Shown here one piece after another: positions 29,594 through 38,766 of a stretch of DNA of 64,000 bases. Position 1 is the stretch's first letter, and each line of letters starts with the position of its first letter. Origin of the DNA: Atopobium sp. oral taxon 416 (lineage in GTDB: Bacteria > Actinomycetota > Coriobacteriia > Coriobacteriales > Atopobiaceae); assembly GCF_018128285.1 (NCBI RefSeq), contig NZ_CP072380.1, positions 1,798,001-1,862,000 of the forward strand. Reading direction: 5' to 3'. The translations under genes and the position numbers were made by a program. Under the pieces are notes generated by a model that was not told the DNA's origin, did no database searches, and saw nothing but the letters and a program-made list of their open reading frames with translations.

Positions 29594-30574
29594 ATGGAGA
29601 TGGATAAGAAGATCGTTCCGGGACGCGTCGGCGTCATCGGTCTCGGCCTTATGGGAGGCTCCTTTGCCAAAGCCTTTGCGAAGGCCGGTGTTGAGGTCTA
29701 CGGCTACGACGTCGCAGAAGACGTGATGGAGCAGGCAGAGGTAGAGACGATCGTGGGGCGCCTCACCGACGACGTGATCCCCACCTGTGAGCTCATCATT
29801 ATCGCCTCCTACCCGAAGGCCTGCATCGAGGAGCTCGCCCGCATCGCGCCTTTGGTCTCCGCCGGCGCGATCGTTATGGACACCGGCGGCGTCAAGAAAG
29901 TGATCTGCGATCAGTGCTTCCCAATCGCGGCGAACTACCCCTTCACCTTTGTGGGTTGCCACCCGATGGCCGGCACCCAGCACTCCGGCTTCGCGCACGC
30001 CCGCGCCAACATGTTCCACAACGCACCGCTCGTAATTGTCCCACCGAAGATAGACGACTTTGCTCGACTCGATCTTCTGGAGTGCATGAAGAAACTGATG
30101 AAGCCGGTCGGCTTTGCACGGTTCACACTCACGACCGCCGAAGAGCACGACAAGATCATCGCCTTCACTTCCCAGCTCGCCCACGTGGTCTCCAACGCCT
30201 ATGTCAAGAGCCCTGAAGCGAAGGTCCACGACGGGTTCTCCGCCGGTTCTTACCGAGACCTGACCCGTGTCGCGTGTCTCAACGCCGACATGTGGACCGA
30301 GCTCTTCTTGGACAACGCAGACAACCTGTCCGCAGAGATCGGCTGCCTGATTGAGAATCTTCGAAAGTACAAGATTGCGATCGATGATCGCAATCCGCAC
30401 TACCTGCACGAGCTCCTCGCTGAGGGCGATCGTCGCAAGCGCGAAATTGAGGGAGAGATAGACCATGACAGATACACCAAACGCCACCACCATCGAGGTG
30501 CCAACTACCTCAAAGACCTATCTGTGCCGTGTGGGAGCCCACATCTTGTCCCAGGTCGGAAACATCACCCGTGA
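29594..30574 (+). CDS. tyrA: Prephenate dehydrogenase
   Basis: NAD(P)-dependent oxidative decarboxylation of prephenate toward tyrosine. The Rossmann motif GVIGLGLMGGSFAKAFAKAG is at residues 13-32. The catalytic histidine region reads VGCHPMAGTQHSGFAHA (near 119-135); the helical dimerisation domain follows with HDKIIAFTSQLAHVVSNAY. 326 residues. The last 36 residues run 110 bases into aroB in another frame and read like non-protein sequence (RYTKRHHHRGANY); the ancestral stop was probably just before the aroB start. Two bases after the DAHP-synthase-like gene. Confidence 0.9.
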   Translation: MEMDKKIVPGRVGVIGLGLMGGSFAKAFAKAGVEVYGYDVAEDVMEQAEVETIVGRLTDDVIPTCELIIIASYPKACIEELARIAPLVSAGAIVMDTGGVKKVICDQCFPIAANYPFTFVGCHPMAGTQHSGFAHARANMFHNAPLVIVPPKIDDFARLDLLECMKKLMKPVGFARFTLTTAEEHDKIIAFTSQLAHVVSNAYVKSPEAKVHDGFSAGSYRDLTRVACLNADMWTELFLDNADNLSAEIGCLIENLRKYKIAIDDRNPHYLHELLAEGDRRKREIEGEIDHDRYTKRHHHRGANYLKDLSVPCGSPHLVPGRKHHP

Positions 30575-31574
30575 GACCTGTGGGGGAACCAAAGCCTGCG
30601 TGGTCTCAGAGTCCCACGTGATGCCCCTCTACGGCATGGAGGTGATGGACTCCCTCAAGGCTGCAGGCTACCAGGTGGTCCCTGCGGTCTTCCCTGCCGG
30701 TGAGGCTTCCAAAAACCTCACCACACTCGGTGAGCTGCTTGAGACCGTCGCCAACTACGAGCTTACCCGCGGCGATGTGATCGTCGCCCTGGGCGGCGGG
30801 GTCACCGGTGATGTCGCGGGACTTGTGGCAGCCCTCTATCTGCGCGGCATCAAGGTCGTCCAGGTGCCGACTTCCTTACTTGCAATGGTCGACTCCTCCG
30901 TGGGTGGCAAGACTGCGATCGATATTCCCCAAGGGAAAAACCTGGTCGGCGCCTTCTGGCAGCCGAGCGCGGTGATTGCAGATATCGACTGTTTCAAGAC
31001 GATCCCTCATGAGCTTTTCACCGACTCCTGCGGCGAGGTGATCAAGCACGCAGTATTGGCGGATCTAGAACTGTTCAAGACACTGCAGAAGACACCCCTC
31101 AACTCCGGAGAGCTCGACGAGCGAGCAATGGCGAACATCGTGGCGCGAAACATCCGCATCAAGCGCGATGTGGTCGCCGCCGACGAGCGGGAGCAGGGAC
31201 TGCGGCAGACCCTGAACCTCGGCCACACGATTGGGCACGCGGTTGAAGCAGCTTACCACTTCAAACTCGGCCACGGCAGCTGCGTGGCAATCGGGTTGTG
31301 CGCGATGGCACGAGCTTCCGCAAAGAAGGGCTGGTGCTCTCAGGAGACCGCGCAGGCTATTGAAGACCTCGTCCGCGCCCACCAGCTCCCCTACGATACA
31401 AAGATCGACCACGAGGTGATCGAGGAGTATGCCACCCATGACAAGAAACGCCGCGGTGACTCCATCACGATCGTCGTGCCAACGAAAATCGGCTCAGTGA
31501 CGCTCAGGAAGATCAGCAGAGCTGAGCTGCGTGAGCTTATCGATTTGGGATGCGGATCTGGACGGCAACCATGA
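30465..31574 (+). CDS. aroB: 3-Dehydroquinate synthase
   Basis: Converts DAHP to 3-dehydroquinate using NAD and a metal. 369 residues. ALGGGVTGDVAGLVAALYLRG near 107 is the NAD-binding signature; metal ligands are in the E of CGEVIKHAVL and in NLGHTIGHAVE. The long overlap with tyrA suggests translational coupling. GGGAGAGATAGACC lies in front of the ATG. The stop overlaps the aroA start (ATGA). Confidence 0.95.
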   Translation: MTDTPNATTIEVPTTSKTYLCRVGAHILSQVGNITRETCGGTKACVVSESHVMPLYGMEVMDSLKAAGYQVVPAVFPAGEASKNLTTLGELLETVANYELTRGDVIVALGGGVTGDVAGLVAALYLRGIKVVQVPTSLLAMVDSSVGGKTAIDIPQGKNLVGAFWQPSAVIADIDCFKTIPHELFTDSCGEVIKHAVLADLELFKTLQKTPLNSGELDERAMANIVARNIRIKRDVVAADEREQGLRQTLNLGHTIGHAVEAAYHFKLGHGSCVAIGLCAMARASAKKGWCSQETAQAIEDLVRAHQLPYDTKIDHEVIEEYATHDKKRRGDSITIVVPTKIGSVTLRKISRAELRELIDLGCGSGRQP

Positions 31575-32890
31575 ATGTCACTATCTCTCCTCACGCCCTG
31601 TCGGGCACGATCCCTTCAATCGCCTCGAAGTCGGTGGCGCACCGCATCTTGATCCTGGCGGCGTTGTGCCCCACCGACGCCGAGATCGCCTGCTCGACCA
31701 CCTCGGTCGACATCGACGCCACAATCAGGTGCCTCAACGCGTTGGGGGCAGCGATCACCCCAACTGAAGGCGGCTACCATGTGGCGCCGATTCCGGCAGT
31801 TGAAGAGAGAACCTCCCCGCGCGGGAATATCGGCCGAACGCTCGAGTGCGAAGAGTCCGGCTCGACCCTGCGCTTCCTGCTTCCGGTGGTGGCAGCACTC
31901 GGCTGCGGAGCCCATTTCACGGGGCACGGCAGACTCGCCAAGCGTCCACTCTCCCCTCTCTATGAACTGCTGCAACAGGGTGGTTGCTCACTTTCTCCCC
32001 AAGGCACGTTTCCACTCGACCTATCCGGGAAGCTCCAGTCACACGAGTTCATCCTGTCGGGGAATGTCTCCTCACAGTTCGTCACAGGACTCCTGATGGC
32101 AGCGTCTGTAATGGACGGTCCGGTTAAGATTGTGGTCGCGGAGCCCATCCAATCACGCCCCTATATCGATATCACCCTCAAAGCCATGGCCGACTTCGGG
32201 ATAAAGATCATGAGCACCCCGGTTCTCCACGGTGACAAGGCGTGCGTTGAGTACACCGTCACGCCGACACACACCCCGCTGACCTCCCCTGGCCTGCTCA
32301 CCGTCGAAGGCGACTGGTCCAATGCCGCCTTCTGGCTCTCCGCCGGCGCAATCGGCACCGACTCGGTCTGTGTCACCAACATGAATCTCTCCTCGGTCCA
32401 AGGAGACCGCTACTGTTTGGCCGCGCTTGCACTGTTTGGCGCCCGCATCAACCGGGCACCGGGGCAAGTCAGCGTCTCACACGGCACCTTGAGCCCTGTC
32501 AAAATCGATGTCCACGATATCCCCGACCTTGTCCCGGTTCTCGCAGTCGTCGCCGCCTATGCCCAGGGTGAGACCCGCTTCACCCATGCGGAACGCCTGC
32601 GGCTGAAAGAATCCGACCGCCTCGAGAGCACCGCAGACCTGATCCGCGCGATGGGCGGCGAGGTCGCCACGACTGACTCCGCACTCACGATTGTAGGACA
32701 CGGCGGACTTCACGGGGGCGGCCCGGTCGACGCCGCAAACGACCACCGCATCGCGATGGCAGCTGCAATCGCCGCAACCTGTGCTGAGGAGCCCACGAAG
32801 ATCCTCGGTGCCGAGTGCGTATCAAAGTCGTACCCCAGCTTCTTTGAGGACTTCCAAGCGCTCGGTGGCCTTGTCAAAAAGGAAGTGTGA
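31571..32890 (+). CDS. aroA: 5-Enolpyruvylshikimate-3-phosphate synthase
   Basis: Adds enolpyruvate from PEP to shikimate 3-phosphate. The ATG at 31571 (ATGA overlap with aroB) gives 439 residues. SIASKSVAHRILILAALC carries the N-terminal Lys-Ser pair; ECEESGSTLRFLLPVVAALG is close to the usual NAGTxxR motif (here EESGSTLRF); LKESDRLES and NDHRIAMAAAIA are the later signatures. It has AroA rather than glyphosate-sensitive NAGTAMR form, as is usual for Gram-positive class enzymes. Confidence 0.94.
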   Translation: MNVTISPHALSGTIPSIASKSVAHRILILAALCPTDAEIACSTTSVDIDATIRCLNALGAAITPTEGGYHVAPIPAVEERTSPRGNIGRTLECEESGSTLRFLLPVVAALGCGAHFTGHGRLAKRPLSPLYELLQQGGCSLSPQGTFPLDLSGKLQSHEFILSGNVSSQFVTGLLMAASVMDGPVKIVVAEPIQSRPYIDITLKAMADFGIKIMSTPVLHGDKACVEYTVTPTHTPLTSPGLLTVEGDWSNAAFWLSAGAIGTDSVCVTNMNLSSVQGDRYCLAALALFGARINRAPGQVSVSHGTLSPVKIDVHDIPDLVPVLAVVAAYAQGETRFTHAERLRLKESDRLESTADLIRAMGGEVATTDSALTIVGHGGLHGGGPVDAANDHRIAMAAAIAATCAEEPTKILGAECVSKSYPSFFEDFQALGGLVKKEV

Positions 32891-32893
32891 TCT

Positions 32894-34039
32894 ATGCCCT
32901 CTCATATGGGTACTACACTCACAGTCTCGGTCTTCGGACAGTCACATTCGCCCGCGATCGGCTGTGTGGTCGAGGGGCTTCCCTCGGGAATTTCGATCGA
33001 TATGGATAAACTGCAGGCCTTCATGGCTCGCCGGGCTCCCGGACAGGGAACCTTCACGACGCCGCGCAAAGAGAAGGACATCCCCGAGATTGTCTCAGGG
33101 TTGAACCAGCACGGCACAACCTGTGGGGCACCGCTCGCGGCGATCATCAGAAACACCAACACCCGTTCGGTTGACTACAAGAACATCGCCTCGGTCCCCC
33201 GCCCCGGCCATGCGGATTTCCCCGCCTGGGTCAAGTGGGGTAAGGATCACGATATCGCGGGCGGCGGCCACTTCTCCGGCCGGCTGACCGCGCCACTCTG
33301 CCTTGCCGGGGGTATCGCTCTACAGGTATTGCAGCAGCACGGTGTGGAAATCGCCGCACACTTGAGCTCCGTAGGTCAGATCCACGACGAGCGGCTCTAC
33401 ACCTACAACAACTCCCCCAAGGGCCGAGAAAAGCTCAACCAGCAGATCGAGACGCTGCATGAGCATCCCTACACGTTGCCCACTCTCTCAGAGGTAGCCT
33501 CAAAGCACATGCTCGCTGCAATTGATGAGGCGAGGCGCAACATTGACTCCATCGGTGGCACCATCGAGTGCGCTGTGGCAGGCCTGCCTGCCGGCATCGG
33601 TTCCCCGATGTTCGATGGGATGGAGAACATCCTGGCGCGTGACCTCTTCGGAATCCCCGGTATGAAAGCTTTGGAATTCGGCCGCGGCTTCGATGTGGCC
33701 CGGCTCCACGGTTCTGAAGACAATGACACCTACGCGCTCGACGAGCAGGGTCAGGTCTATCCCACCACCAACAATGCGGGCGGGATCCTGGGCGGCATTA
33801 CGACCGGCGCCGCACTGTCCTTTAGATTGGCTATGAAGCCGACCTCGAGCATCTCGCGGCCACAGCCATCGGTCAATCTTGCTACGATGGAGGGGACAAC
33901 CCTTACAGTGCATGGCCGCCATGACCCGTGCATCGCCGTGCGCGCCGTCCCGGTCGTGGAGGCTGTAGCGGCCCTCGCGTCGCTGGACGCCTGGCTCTCC
34001 TTCCCTCCCCAAAACACTGCGCTCGATACACAAAAGTGA
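32894..34039 (+). CDS. aroC: Chorismate synthase
   Basis: FMN-dependent elimination giving chorismate. 381 residues. The start MPSHMGTTLTVSVFGQSHSPAIG is typical (GxSHG reads GQSHS). RPGHADFPAWVKWG and GGGHFSGRLTAPLCLAGGI are signature 2, and the C-terminal NAGGILGGITTG with RPQPSV confirms it. Four bases after aroA. Confidence 0.95.
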   Translation: MPSHMGTTLTVSVFGQSHSPAIGCVVEGLPSGISIDMDKLQAFMARRAPGQGTFTTPRKEKDIPEIVSGLNQHGTTCGAPLAAIIRNTNTRSVDYKNIASVPRPGHADFPAWVKWGKDHDIAGGGHFSGRLTAPLCLAGGIALQVLQQHGVEIAAHLSSVGQIHDERLYTYNNSPKGREKLNQQIETLHEHPYTLPTLSEVASKHMLAAIDEARRNIDSIGGTIECAVAGLPAGIGSPMFDGMENILARDLFGIPGMKALEFGRGFDVARLHGSEDNDTYALDEQGQVYPTTNNAGGILGGITTGAALSFRLAMKPTSSISRPQPSVNLATMEGTTLTVHGRHDPCIAVRAVPVVEAVAALASLDAWLSFPPQNTALDTQK

Positions 34040-34047
34040 GGTACGCC

Positions 34048-35193
34048 GTGCGTGATCTTCCTGAAGTAAGAAAAGACCTCGACAGCATCGACTCTCAGAT
34101 GATCGACCTATTTCTGCAGCGTATGAAGCTTGCAGATGAGGTCGCTGACTATAAGGCCAAGAACCATCTGCCCATTTTGGACAGAGAGCGTGAACGTGAG
34201 AAGCTCGCCCGCGTCGCAAACTCGGTCCCAATGGAATTCCGTAACTACGCGCAGGTCTTAGAGGGCCTTCTGATGGAAGCCGCACGCGCCAGGGAGTACA
34301 AAGACATCGGCACGATGTCCAATGTTGGCAGCCAAATCTACGAGGCTATCAAGCATGAGCCGAAGCTTTTCCCGCAGCGCGCCAATGTCGCGTGCCAGGG
34401 GGTTGAGGGTGCCTATTCGCAGATCGCCACTGACCGGATCTTCAAGCATCCGACAATCGCCTACTTTGACTCTTTCGAGGGGGTCTTCAGAGCCGTCGAA
34501 GAGGGTTTCTCCCAGTTCGGGGTCCTGCCAGTTGAGAACTCCACCGCCGGCACCGTCAACCAGGTGTATGACCTGATGATGGAGCATCACTTCTCGATCG
34601 TGCGCTCCACCCGCATCAAGATCGACCACAACGTGTTGGCCAAGCCGGGCACCGAGATGGACCAGATCAAGGATATCTACTCCCACGAGCAGGCGATAAG
34701 GCAGTGCCACCGCTTTTTGATCGAGCACCCCTACATCAAGGTACATGCGGTTGAGAATACGGCGATAGCGGCGAGAATGGTCGCGGAGAGCGACCGCGAC
34801 GACGTGGCAGCGCTCTCGAGCCGTGCCTGCGCCGAACTCTACAACCTCAACATCCTGATGCACAGCGTGCAGGACACCGGGAACAACTTCACACGCTTCG
34901 CCTGCATCACCAAGGACCTCACGATCTATCCCGGTGCAGACAGAACCTCGCTGATGCTGATTGTCAACCATGAACCGGGCGCGCTGTACAAGGTACTGTC
35001 ACGCTTCTATGCCCTCGATATCAACCTGGTGAAATTGGAGAGTCGACCGATCCCGGACCGCGACTTCGAGTTCATGTTCTACTTCGATATCGAATGCCCC
35101 GCTGAGGCCCCGGAGTTTGCCACCCTGATCAACTCCCTGGGCGATGTCTGCGAGGAGTTCCGCTATCTGGGGTCATACCGAGAAATCATTTAG
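34048..35193 (+). CDS. pheA: Bifunctional chorismate mutase / prephenate dehydratase
   Basis: P-protein of phenylalanine synthesis. The GTG at 34048 is chosen: GAGG seven bases upstream, eight bases after the aroC stop, and the protein then begins at the chorismate mutase domain; an open frame continues upstream inside aroC. 381 residues: AroQ-type mutase (1-90, RKDLDSIDSQMIDLFLQRMK), prephenate dehydratase (about 105-285, GAYSQIA, ENSTAGTVNQVYDL, GNNFTRFACI) and an ACT domain (about 295-375) with NHEPGALYKVLS and ESRP, the phenylalanine-sensing motif. Feedback inhibition by phenylalanine is therefore likely. Confidence 0.95.
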   Translation: MRDLPEVRKDLDSIDSQMIDLFLQRMKLADEVADYKAKNHLPILDREREREKLARVANSVPMEFRNYAQVLEGLLMEAARAREYKDIGTMSNVGSQIYEAIKHEPKLFPQRANVACQGVEGAYSQIATDRIFKHPTIAYFDSFEGVFRAVEEGFSQFGVLPVENSTAGTVNQVYDLMMEHHFSIVRSTRIKIDHNVLAKPGTEMDQIKDIYSHEQAIRQCHRFLIEHPYIKVHAVENTAIAARMVAESDRDDVAALSSRACAELYNLNILMHSVQDTGNNFTRFACITKDLTIYPGADRTSLMLIVNHEPGALYKVLSRFYALDINLVKLESRPIPDRDFEFMFYFDIECPAEAPEFATLINSLGDVCEEFRYLGSYREII

Positions 35194-35205
35194 GAGCACA
35201 CACCT

Positions 35206-36492
35206 ATGGATACATCCAGACACACCTTCGGCCTGATCGGCCATCCCTTGGGACACAGCTGGTCCCCGCTGATCCACAAACAGTTGGGGTCAACCCCCTA
35301 TGACTTAATCGAGCTGGAACCAGACGAGGTAGAGCCTTTTCTGAAGGAGGGCGACTGGAAGGGGCTCAACGTCACGATCCCTTACAAGGAAAAGGCGGCA
35401 CAGCTCGCAGATGTCACCACCGAGCGCGTCAAGCGCACCGGAGCGGCCAATACCTTGGTTAAAGACAAGAACGGGCGCATTGTTGCGGAGAACACCGACG
35501 TGCTCGGCTTTGAGTATCTACTGGAGCGCTTCTGCACACAGAAACTCTACGCCACCTCTACCAAACAGCTCCTTCAGCACCAGGACGTGTTGGTCTTAGG
35601 ATCTGGCGGAGCGAGCAAGGCGGTCCAGGCGGCGCTAGAGGATCTAAATGTACACGTGAGTGTGATCTCCCGCAGAGGTGAGGACACCTATGCCACGATC
35701 ACCCAAAAACATTCCCACGTCTCCCTGATCGTGAACACCACCCCCGTGGGTATGTATCCTAACTGCCCGAAAAGTCCGCTTGATCAGGAGACCCTCGCCG
35801 CGTTTCCGGAGCTATTCGGCGTGCTCGATGTGGTCTACAATCCCCGGCGCACCAAACTGTGCATGCTGGCAGAGTCGATACACCTACCCTCGGAGTCCGG
35901 CCTCGCGATGCTCATCGCCCAGGCCTTCCATTCAAGCACCCTCTTCCAGGACAAAGACCTCGACGATTCCCTGATTGAAACGATCGAGAATACGATCGTA
36001 CGGGAAACCGAGAACCTGATCCTGATCGGGATGCCCGGTAGCGGGAAGACCTCAACCGGCAAGCACTTAGCGCACCTGCTGCACCGCCCTTTCCTCGATA
36101 TGGACCAGGCGTTCACGATGGAGTTCGGGATCAGCCCTGCCACCTTTATCGAAACAAAGGGTGAAGCGAGCTTCAGAGAATTGGAGACGAGCCTGCTTGC
36201 CAAGAGCGCTTCACGCCCCGGCATGGTCATCTCCTGCGGCGGAGGTGTCGTTACCCGTCCGGAAAACTATGAGCTGCTCCACCAGAATGGCCGTATCATT
36301 ATGCTCAACCGACCTCTGATCGGCCTTGAAACCGATGGGCGCCCCATCTCACAGCGTGACGGGATCGCCAAACTCGCCGAGACGCGCATGCCGCTCTATC
36401 GGGGTTGGGCTGACTTCGTGATCCGCACTACGGGCACGCCCAAGGGTGACGTAGAGGCGATTCTCTCGAGGCTTAAAAGCTCGGCGGATTAG
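35206..36492 (+). CDS. aroEK: Fused shikimate dehydrogenase - shikimate kinase
   Basis: 428 residues with two enzymes in one chain. Residues 1-255 are shikimate dehydrogenase: GHPLGHSWSPLIHKQL, NVTIPYKEKA with the catalytic lysine at 61, ENTDVLGF, and the NADP loop LGSGGASKAVQAAL. Residues 270-428 are shikimate kinase: Walker A GMPGSGKT (275-282), DMDQAF (the DxD pair), FRELE and CGGGVV. The two catalyse steps 4 and 5 of the pathway, so the product can be passed on. The stop is followed within a few bases by an IS30 copy. Confidence 0.95.
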   Translation: MDTSRHTFGLIGHPLGHSWSPLIHKQLGSTPYDLIELEPDEVEPFLKEGDWKGLNVTIPYKEKAAQLADVTTERVKRTGAANTLVKDKNGRIVAENTDVLGFEYLLERFCTQKLYATSTKQLLQHQDVLVLGSGGASKAVQAALEDLNVHVSVISRRGEDTYATITQKHSHVSLIVNTTPVGMYPNCPKSPLDQETLAAFPELFGVLDVVYNPRRTKLCMLAESIHLPSESGLAMLIAQAFHSSTLFQDKDLDDSLIETIENTIVRETENLILIGMPGSGKTSTGKHLAHLLHRPFLDMDQAFTMEFGISPATFIETKGEASFRELETSLLAKSASRPGMVISCGGGVVTRPENYELLHQNGRIIMLNRPLIGLETDGRPISQRDGIAKLAETRMPLYRGWADFVIRTTGTPKGDVEAILSRLKSSAD

Positions 36493-37578
36493 CATTCTGA
36501 GTGCAACAGGATAGCCCGCTGGATGCAAGCGTGGCACACTCCGGAAGGCTACGATGTTGGTTGTCCAAGTCAACGTCGAAAGCTAAAAGGAATGTGCCAC
36601 TACACACATCTTAGCCTACAGGAGAGGAACTGCATAGCCGAGCTGCATGGCACAAGGGAAGGCCAATTGCCTATATCGCGGCAGAGATCGGCAGGGACAG
36701 CTCCAGCGTCTGCCACAAGCTCAAGAGGAACGGCTGGCACGGCCGCTTTAAGGCATGTACTGCCCAAAAGGAGGGCGGATGAGCGCCGCAGGAGATGCAG
36801 GGCGAAAAGGCGGCTTTCAGACCCTGCGCTTACGCAGAAGGTGCGCTTACTCATCATGGACAGACACTGGTCCCTGGAGCAGATAGACTATATCTCAGGC
36901 TCGAGGGTGGCGGCAGGTGCGTCGTTGAGCCTGCCGACTATTCTTACCGGCAGGTCCGTAGCCGCCACGCTCGAGCTGCCGGGATCCGGCCCGCAAGGCC
37001 AGGTGCGGCGCCACCTGCGCAGGAAGGGGAAGCAGGTCTGCAGCAAGAGGCCTAAGACGAGGGGTAAGATCAGGATCTTACACAGCGTAAAGGAGAGGCC
37101 CAAGAGGCCGATGCGAGGTCTCGTCTCGGAGAGGGGGCAGACGACACGCTCGTGGCAGCGGACCCGTGTGCCTGCTCGTGCTTGCCGACAGGGCAGTGAG
37201 GCTGCTTGCCGCGAAGAGAGCCAGCACGTCAGCGGGAGCGTCTCCAAAGCCGAGGTCGGGCTGCTACAGGGACGTCCCCTCGAGACGCTCACCCCGGATA
37301 GGGGCAAGCAGTTCGCAGGGCATACAGGGCTCACAAAGGCCCTGGGAGGCGTGCAGTTCTACTTCTGCGACCCTCACCATCCCTGGCAGAAGCCGACAGT
37401 TAAGAACACCAACGGGCTCCTGCGGGAGTTCTTCCCCAAGGGCACAGACTTCAGCAAGGTCACAAACGAGGAGGTGCAGCATGCGGTAGAGCTGATCTGT
37501 GACAGGCCAAGGAAGGTCCTGAAATACAGGACAGCCAACGAGGTCTTTAGGGAGATGTTGCACTCAGCTTGACAATCT
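36493..37578 (+). mobile_element. IS30-family element, copy 2 (within the aro operon)
   Basis: Homologous to 2619-3675. A single frame from about 36523 to 37572 is open (349 codons) but the conserved blocks are not all in it: HLSLQERNCIAEL (36592 on) and the C-terminal half RPLETLTPDRGKQFAGHTG to TANEVFREMLHSA are in that frame, while EIGRDSSSVCHKLKRNG and parts of the catalytic core (LLVLADRAVRLLAAKR) are in others. So it is frameshifted. FCDPHHPWQKPTVKNTNGL shows the third catalytic block with K where IS30 proteins usually have E. It separates aroEK from the EIIB-aroQ gene. Confidence 0.8.
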
Positions 37579-37770
37579 GCCCTCCAAATAAACGATCTCC
37601 TCACACAATCTACCATAGTACCTGCACAAACAGGTACCGAACTGTGCCGCTGGCACCGGAATAGCACCATTTGGGGTATCCGTTCGGCAAAGCGCCTGTT
37701 TCACCCATAGACTAGAGACATCATATACATATCGAGTTTATTGAATTTTGAATCTCATTGAAGGTTTCCC

Positions 37771-38766
37771 ATGGATGAACAGAGAACAGCCGAGAAGGTA
37801 CTCACAGCTGTAGGTGGAAGAAAGAACGTACTCGACAATATGATCTGCATGACGAGACTGAGGGTGACAGTGAATGACCCGGCGCTTGTGGACAGAAAAG
37901 CACTCAACAGCATCAACTCGGTCTTGGGCATCGCCCAGCGGGGTTCCAACAGCATCGAAGTCGTCTTCGGCCCCAATGTGATCGACCGCATCTTCAAGAG
38001 CTTTACCGACCTCACCCATCTCTCACAGGACATGCAGGTAGAGAGGTCACAGCACCAATCCAAGAAGAGAAGCGAAACGCCCGAAAACAAGCGCTCCTAT
38101 GATATACAGGTCAAAGCGAACACTGAGCGAGCCGCACAGTCCCCGGACAGCGCGAGCATGGATACCGACGATATCGAGCTCTTAGAGCACATGTTTCCCA
38201 ATGCGCAGGCAAAGTCGCAGGCGGAGACAGGCAAACAGGGAACGGTCGCCCACATCCATGCCTCAAAGCTTGTAAATGCACCGGCAGTGGCTGCAGCTAA
38301 ATCTGTCAAATCGACTTCAGAAGGCGAGCGTCTCCTTATTATCAACGGCCCCAACATCAACATGCTGGGTATCCGGGAACCCGACACCTACGGGACGGAC
38401 ACCTTTGCAGATCTGCTCGAGCTCTGCCAGCAGTCCGCTAAAGAAGCGGGCTTCAAAGACTGCCTCTGCTTCCAGTCAAACCATGAGGGGGATATTGTCG
38501 ACCAAATCCAGGACGCTTACTACGTCTTTGATGGCCTGATCATTAACCCCGCTGCCTATACACATACCTCGATTGCGATTCTGGATGCCGTGAAGGCCAT
38601 CAAGATCCCGACGATCGAAGTCCACATCTCCGATGTGCCGGAGCGCGAGAGCTTCCGACAGGTCTCCTATATCAGAGAGGCTGCCTTTGAGACAATTATG
38701 GGACAGGGTATCCAGGGGTACCGCAAGGCGATCTTCGATATGTGGAACCACCTGAAGGCACTCTAG
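37771..38766 (+). CDS. PTS EIIB domain fused to type II 3-dehydroquinate dehydratase
   Basis: 331 residues with two unrelated parts. Residues 5-80 match the glucose-type EIIB domain: TAEKVLTAVGGRKNV, then ICMTRLRVTV with the phosphorylatable Cys at 26, and NSIEVVFGPNVIDRIFKS. A polar, low-complexity linker covers about 85-185. Residues 188-331 are a full-length AroQ: NGPNINMLGIREPDTYGT (Tyr207), QSNHEGDIVDQI, IINPAAYTHTS (Asn259, His265), EVHISDV (Glu283, His285), R296 and GIQGY. All known catalytic residues are kept, so it should dehydrate 3-dehydroquinate to 3-dehydroshikimate. The EIIB part suggests control by PTS phosphorylation. GAAGG lies eight bases before the ATG. Confidence 0.9.
   Translation: MDEQRTAEKVLTAVGGRKNVLDNMICMTRLRVTVNDPALVDRKALNSINSVLGIAQRGSNSIEVVFGPNVIDRIFKSFTDLTHLSQDMQVERSQHQSKKRSETPENKRSYDIQVKANTERAAQSPDSASMDTDDIELLEHMFPNAQAKSQAETGKQGTVAHIHASKLVNAPAVAAAKSVKSTSEGERLLIINGPNINMLGIREPDTYGTDTFADLLELCQQSAKEAGFKDCLCFQSNHEGDIVDQIQDAYYVFDGLIINPAAYTHTSIAILDAVKAIKIPTIEVHISDVPERESFRQVSYIREAAFETIMGQGIQGYRKAIFDMWNHLKAL

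Follow-up and report, generated by a model that had tools for sequence, protein, structure and literature searches.

Comparison of genomes across one bacterial family demonstrates, at the level of sequence, that a PTS EIIB module carrying the motif Cys-x-Thr-Arg-Leu-Arg has been inherited along with the aro cluster, and that it is kept under selection even where the type II dehydroquinase (AroQ) to which it was fused is catalytically altered or gone. The gene from which the comparison started, here called EIIB-Aro, lies in a window of 64,000 nucleotides from Atopobium sp. oral taxon 416 (the whole stretch of DNA that was analysed). Retention of the EIIB domain where the AroQ half is dead or absent suggests that this domain has a job of its own, and we hold it slightly more probable than even that EIIB-Aro serves the shikimate pathway as a PTS signal-input protein.

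Table 1. Features of the EIIB-Aro gene and of the aro cluster that precedes it (positions in the window)
Feature	Position	Strand	Remarks
tyrA, prephenate dehydrogenase	29594..30574	+	
aroB, 3-dehydroquinate synthase	30465..31574	+	
aroA, EPSP synthase	31550..32890	+	
aroC, chorismate synthase	32894..34039	+	
pheA: chorismate mutase, prephenate dehydratase, ACT	34042..35193	+	
aroE-aroK fusion: shikimate dehydrogenase N-domain and shikimate kinase, one ORF	35206..36492	+	
Apparently decayed IS30-like element, 26-nt imperfect inverted ends	36483..37581	+	sub-cut-off PF13936 match; "IS30-like" and "decayed" from reading the translation
EIIB-AroQ fusion gene (EIIB-Aro)	37771..38766	+	331 aa, ATG start, intact single ORF
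EIIB domain, glucose/sucrose/MurNAc-type PTS EIIB	37771..38025	+	residues 1-85; PF00367, TIGR01996, NF007152, PtsG EIIB chains
EIIB phosphorylation-site motif C26-M-T-R29-L-R31, codons	37846..37863	+	C/R/R in 131/131 rows
Polar linker	38026..38328	+	about residues 86-186; recurring linker patterns in relatives
AroQ domain, type II 3-dehydroquinate dehydratase	38329..38763	+	residues 187-331; PF01220; Y207 N259 H265 E283 H285 R296

The gene is one intact frame in which, as an earlier note on this DNA had described, an EIIB domain is followed by a polar linker of about 100 residues and a complete type II dehydroquinase (Table 1). Pfam placed PTS_EIIB (PF00367) at residues 9-41 (E 1.7e-11, 43.8 bits against a cut-off of 27) and DHquinase_II (PF01220) at residues 188-321 (E 7.1e-53). 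The assignment of the first domain to the glucose type was borne out as well, PF00367 scoring above its cut-off and a 16-sequence EIIB-Aro profile matching the E. coli PtsG EIIB chains 1o2f_B, 3bp3_A and 1iba_A (E 7e-12 to 2e-11), with the Cys of EIIB-Aro aligned to that of 'ACITRLR' in these chains. With TIGR01996 (60.9 bits) and NF007152 (48 bits) the EIIB part scored far under the whole-transporter cut-offs, as expected for a single domain, and it did not reach the narrower EIIB_glc model TIGR00826 (35.5 vs 45.75). The AroQ part passed NF003806 (175.2 vs 171) and narrowly missed TIGR01088 (165.3 vs 169.85), and the solved structures nearest to it are AroQ chains. Cys26 was found at the position previously given for it, as were Tyr207, Asn259, His265, Glu283, His285 and Arg296, which we take, with the list in the earlier note, to be the AroQ catalytic set.

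Inside the EIIB-Aro ORF no EIIC permease was found by Pfam, and the named neighbours are aro genes, a folate cyclo-ligase gene and trpS. Pfam likewise found no DNA-binding, PRD or EIIB-Gat (PF02302-like) domain in EIIB-Aro or in an AroQ-less relative (L167). A triosephosphate isomerase domain was not matched in EIIB-Aro, NF011497 matching by the EIIB part only (25.4 bits vs a cut-off of 485). The genome that carries the window gave one AroQ match, EIIB-Aro itself, and no match to AroD, the type I dehydroquinase that is unrelated to AroQ; EIIB-Aro should therefore be the sole dehydroquinase there. A frameshift or misassembly peculiar to this assembly is excluded, because the genome is a single contig of 3.0 Mb and the same architecture occurs in 47 named contigs.

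These contigs come from a scan of one genome per species, for which the best 80 of 583 loci were inspected. Among these 80 loci, 47 (L039-L085) are EIIB-AroQ fusions, 32 are AroQ genes without the EIIB motif and one (L086) is cut by the contig start; the whole EIIB domain is present on 46 of the 47 fusion contigs, the other (L076) beginning inside the domain, and the fusion hosts among the best 80 include Olsenella, Atopobium, Lancefieldella, Parafannyhessea and Thermophilibacter. A search with profile A1 found the gene or a remnant of it in 132 of the 140 genomes of the window's own family, which we infer to be Atopobiaceae. Recurrence in related Coriobacteriia, as had been predicted, thus holds for the family alone as far as the matches show: among the matches listed from 396 genomes of the class, no fusion was found outside the family, where the matches start beyond the EIIB portion of the model and are AroQ alone. 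In three draft genomes (G096, G343 and G412) EIIB-Aro was missing but AroC was matched, the aroC-bearing contig of G096 being 6.7 kb long. Five others (G399, G400, G401, G248 and G384; 86, 79, 57, 94 and 86% complete, respectively) have neither EIIB-Aro nor AroC, though an EIIB within a frame of transporter size occurs in every one of them; only one of the five is more than 90% complete, which weakens the argument for a link to the pathway. A tree of the short EIIB domain, rooted at the midpoint, did not group the 132 EIIB-Aro tips as one clade against 10 PTS EIIBs of the window's own genome.

Conservation of Cys26 among homologues had been proposed as a check, and the residue proved invariant: C26, R29 and R31 are kept in all 131 rows of the family alignment that hold this part of the protein. 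As T28, L30, G15, G16 and N19 are just as fixed, the conserved part looks like a phosphotransfer site and not like a bare Cys. Over the domains as a whole, the mean identity between 25 genera is 0.46 for EIIB and 0.68 for AroQ.

In the window, EIIB-Aro closes the aro cluster, with tyrA, aroB, aroA, aroC, pheA and aroEK upstream on the same strand. The IS30-like element separates it from aroEK and the rest of the cluster and is missing at the sister locus L039; the left inverted end of this element overlaps the aroEK stop codon. Across 85 mapped neighbourhood loci, which include some contigs twice, aroK is the next queried upstream gene of the same strand at 83 loci and aroE at one, and at the last (L075) EIIB-Aro stands tail-to-tail with aroK instead of behind it, an arrangement that is a local inversion. 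The gap between aroK and EIIB-Aro has a median of 199 nt (three gaps exceed 1 kb), and the two are likely to share a candidate operon. This position behind aroK or aroE in 84 of 85 loci, together with the absence of the gene from the five genomes without AroC, ties EIIB-Aro to the pathway.

AroD was detected in 24 of the 140 genomes, 15 of which belong to genus g13 and 9 to g25. Of these AroD-plus genomes, 17 show changes among the six AroQ catalytic residues and 4 have lost the AroQ domain, and the EIIB site is intact in 24 of 24. All six AroQ residues are kept in the remaining 3 (G353, G335 and G422), a point against our preferred reading. AroD-minus genomes have all six residues in 105 of 108 cases, the exceptions being G424 and G410, which are 73% and 77% complete and both fall inside the AroD clade, and G403 (L171), where an ambiguous base in the linker interrupts the frame, which was taken as an assembly problem. 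A run of N in the linker of G188 (L173) was taken in the same way. In G336 (L174) and at L071, about 21 AroQ residues around QSNHEG are gone even though the catalytic six are in place, and AroD was not detected; by its six residues, G336 is counted among the 105 AroQ-intact genomes. The AroD of G296, G332 and G353 (L227, L228 and L229) is part of a 577-578-codon open frame, which runs on into a second AroE-like sequence, an assignment made by reading the translation and not by search.

The two domains also part ways when alignment columns are compared. The 13 EIIB columns with at least 98% fixation among AroD-minus rows show 100% retention in the AroD-plus rows, while none of the 45 AroQ columns fixed to the same degree reaches 95% there, their mean retention being 0.56, or 0.67 in the 20 AroD-plus genomes that still have the domain. 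The residues most often lost belong to the lid and the active site (retention in the 24 genomes of 0.04 for R202, 0.12 for H265 and 0.17 for both Y207 and R296), and 16 core AroQ columns, including N259, are kept in all 20 genomes with the domain. This comparison covered 103 AroD-minus and 24 AroD-plus rows, leaving out G424, G410, G403, G411a, G411b, G345, WIN, G343 and G096, of which the last two had no row in the column alignment anyway. Pairwise identity is inverted, with 0.71 for EIIB vs 0.53 for AroQ in g13, and 0.67 vs 0.59 in the AroD-plus members of g25.

The AroQ-less proteins, found in G296, G317, G332, G352 and G424, are 145-162 residues long, carry EIIB at their start and are encoded directly behind aroK. 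Substitution rates were estimated by NG86, which is rough at high dS, and pairs with dS of 0.02 or less, or of 3 or more, were kept outside the medians. Among the three closest of the AroQ-less EIIB proteins, the method gave pairwise values of dN 0.025/dS 0.98, dN 0.011/dS 0.535 and dN 0.036/dS 0.93; these proteins are under strong purifying selection and are not decaying. The dead AroQ domains of g13 are still constrained too (dN 0.052 and dS 1.04 for G193/G367; dN 0.056 and dS 0.90 for G238/G286), and this constraint suggests that they may have a structural use. In the g13 loci L172 and L175-L185, AroQ is without its catalytic lid, His and Arg, core residues are fixed and dN/dS is low in close pairs; from these sequences, the domain seems to be a pseudoenzyme under selection. 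Among the AroD-minus genera, evolution is sometimes faster in EIIB than in AroQ, with dN/dS of 0.35 vs 0.14 in g14 and 0.23 vs 0.17 in g6, and the reverse, 0.16 vs 0.20, in g3. Moreover, in the five AroD-minus sets the AroQ identity equals or exceeds that of EIIB, which again speaks against the reading that we favour.

In a tree of four aro proteins from 36 genomes, the 18 sampled AroD-plus genomes (of 24) and G424 form one clade with a support of 1.0, within which the AroQ-deleted genomes are not one clade. A tree of aroEK with 66 tips recovered the same AroD clade together with G410 (support 0.93) and set five AroD-minus g25 genomes apart. The simplest reading is that AroD was gained once and that AroQ was deleted at least twice. 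Since the AroD-plus genomes form one clade, the contrast between AroD and AroQ represents one origin and not 24 independent ones. A view of AroQ loss as many independent events was rejected, the AroD-plus genomes being one clade in both trees, and a graded series within g25 was dropped because the aroEK tree places the AroD-minus members of that genus in a clade of their own.

Two short patterns, V-x-I and an acidic, LxxLL-like one, recur in the linkers of relatives. They occur in this order in 85 of 121 linkers, compared with a mean of 0.39 and a maximum of 3 in 200 shuffles, the patterns having been chosen after the sequences were seen and a linker having been obtained from 121 of the 131 EIIB rows. 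The linker in the window contains the acidic pattern (..DDIELLEHMF..) and V-x-I only loosely (SYDIQVKA). In the AroQ-less proteins, V-x-I is present in all five, and the acidic pattern in strict form in one of five and in loose form in four of five.

A link of EIIB-Aro to the PTS, as suggested in the earlier note, is plausible, because a glucose-type EIIA (PF00358) occurs in 128 of the 132 genomes with EIIB-Aro (134 of all 140) and because the gene follows aroE or aroK in 84 of 85 loci. No PF00358 EIIA was found in four EIIB-Aro genomes, of which G404, G411 and G424 are 68-85% complete and G159 is 98% complete; the last is an AroD-plus genome that has kept the Cys and has no EIIA_1 match, and is a real point against an involvement of the PTS. 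Twenty-one chosen genomes were examined for PF00367. In the 13 that had been chosen for a single EIIB match in the family profile search, the EIIB-Aro domain is the sole PF00367 match in every case, and each of the 13 has at least one EIIA with both histidines. Overall, 25 of 26 EIIA loci were aligned and both His were present in 25 of 25, two of the loci coming from other genomes and two being the same place. The single-contig genomes G128 and G086 each gave just one EIIA match, which in both is a stand-alone protein.

In the window's own genome, the best match to the fusion profile after EIIB-Aro is the EIIB of an EIIBC at C1:451228 (L155). It adjoins a MupG gene (PF19200, PF05913) and is therefore probably a MurNAc-type PTS; E. 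coli MurP borrows the EIIA of the glucose system. Among the five EIICs without PF00367 that were scanned in this genome, two (L163 and L164) carry another EIIB type, PF02302, and three (L149, L152 and L158) have no B domain in frame. At C1:1105989-1107228 (L002, L156) and at C1:789672-790484, EIIB and EIIC parts lie in separate short frames, one EIIC having an internal TGA; these are apparently broken EIIBC genes.

PEP is a substrate used by both the PTS and the shikimate pathway. The EIIB part is most likely a PTS-charged receiver for the aro pathway, and not just a dimmer of AroQ, with a presumed phosphorylation and output. EI and HPr would charge the glucose-type EIIA, which in turn would phosphorylate Cys26. 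Because no EIIC is attached, the phosphoryl group would not be spent on a sugar, and the ratio of Cys~P to Cys could report PEP supply (PEP:pyruvate). Charged or uncharged EIIB, with its linker, would then adjust flux by binding some other component, either of the pathway itself or of the machinery that expresses it, the linker perhaps being the route by which EIIB acts on that other pathway part. In most species AroQ, being covalently attached, may join the same complex or be modulated too. We would give somewhat less than an even chance to a further proposal, by which a glucose-family EIIB serves as a stand-alone, PTS-charged PEP gauge that was welded to AroQ in the family ancestor; its control function would be separable from the dehydratase, since the AroD lineages keep EIIB beside the aro genes, either free or on a dead AroQ.

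The model put forward in the earlier note, taken in the narrow form that phosphorylation of EIIB affects only the attached AroQ, in its activity or its location, agrees with 105 of 108 AroD-minus genomes carrying the fusion with a full set of six AroQ residues, as well as with the own genome having EIIB-Aro as its single AroQ match and no AroD match. We nevertheless regard it as unlikely, because EIIB and its Cys persist where AroQ is catalytically altered and also where it is deleted (L166-L170), in the latter case with low dN/dS in the measured pairs, so that the model would fit only with a later re-use of the EIIB module. That the Cys serves to tune AroQ is not supported in this form, since the AroD-plus genomes keep EIIB and its Cys although 17 of the 24 have an altered AroQ and 4 have none; tuning of AroQ by the Cys phosphate may also take place, but it leaves the lineages with a dead or missing AroQ unexplained. 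A role of the Cys and the EIIB fold in oligomerisation or redox sensing, without phosphorylation by the PTS, would suit the invariance of the Cys and the oligomeric nature of AroQ. Such a role is reported for the EIIB-like domains of AtxA and RivR, in which the Cys is needed for dimer formation (PMC8560693). The fixation of T28, R29, L30, R31, G15, G16 and N19, which together have the look of a phosphotransfer site, and the presence of an EIIA with both His in 13 genomes without another PF00367 argue against such a role, which we judge quite unlikely.

The EIIB of EIIB-Aro might instead be a working transport domain, serving in trans an EIIC that has no B domain of its own and being merely parked in the aro cluster. 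The phosphotransfer motif with both Arg is kept, the best match in the own genome after the fusion is the EIIB of the EIIBC linked to MupG (L155), and genomes without another PF00367 keep EIIB-Aro, all of which would be compatible with transport. However, its presence follows the aro pathway and not the transporters, the gene being absent from the five AroC-minus genomes with transporter-size EIIB frames and adjoining aroK or aroE in 85 of 85 mapped loci; moreover, two of the five scanned EIICs without PF00367 have PF02302 (L163, L164), and we find this possibility very improbable. A last reading takes the EIIB for a neutral passenger, or puts the fusion down to an artefact of assembly or annotation; it draws on the restriction of the fusion to one family among the matches listed, and is refuted by its occurrence in 47 named contigs, by a gene or remnant in 132 of 140 genomes and by dN/dS of about 0.02-0.04 at dS of 0.5-1 in the three AroQ-less pairs, which leaves it next to no probability.

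EIIB-Aro may be set against several known systems. With the EIIB of E. coli PtsG and MurP (PF00367) it shares the profile, the Cys and the Arg-Leu-Arg phosphotransfer motif, but EIIB-Aro has no EIIC and is fused to a biosynthetic enzyme or stands free in an aro cluster. With AroQ (PF01220, TIGR01088) it shares all six catalytic residues, the AroQ domain in the window being an ordinary one, and it differs by the added N-terminal EIIB and linker and by the degenerate AroQ domains of one clade. The NCBI-named family of triosephosphate isomerase-EIIB fusions (NF011497/PRK14905) likewise joins a glucose/sucrose-type EIIB to an enzyme of central metabolism, but the enzyme differs and the EIIB is at the C end (matched positions 278-352 of 357); no work on the function of this fusion was found in the open-access literature searched. 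In MtlR and the AtxA/Mga group, an EIIB-type domain with a conserved Cys is used for regulation and not for transport, these being EIIB-Gat-like domains in DNA-binding regulators as far as the excerpt of PMC8560693 goes; EIIB-Aro, in contrast, has a glucose-family EIIB beside biosynthetic genes and no DNA-binding domain by Pfam. Neither an EIIB fused to a shikimate enzyme nor an EIIB persisting without that enzyme was found described in the open-access literature searched, and an excerpt of PMC2405797 held no EIIB-enzyme fusion. What is already known are thus EIIB-type domains in regulators (PMC8560693, in excerpt) and the named triosephosphate isomerase-EIIB family; an EIIB on a shikimate enzyme, and its persistence without the enzyme, appear to be new.

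In some aromatic-producing strains the PTS has been removed, with competition for PEP with the shikimate pathway given as the reason in the abstract of PMC2089068. If the proposed function is true, EIIB-Aro would be a naturally occurring link, by phosphotransfer, between the PTS and the shikimate pathway, and hence a direct control point. The AroD-bearing clade makes an odd fusion into a test: as the same EIIB occurs with a live, a dead and no AroQ, its function would be separable from dehydratase activity. If true, the family would also show a route from a transporter domain to a regulator of biosynthesis.
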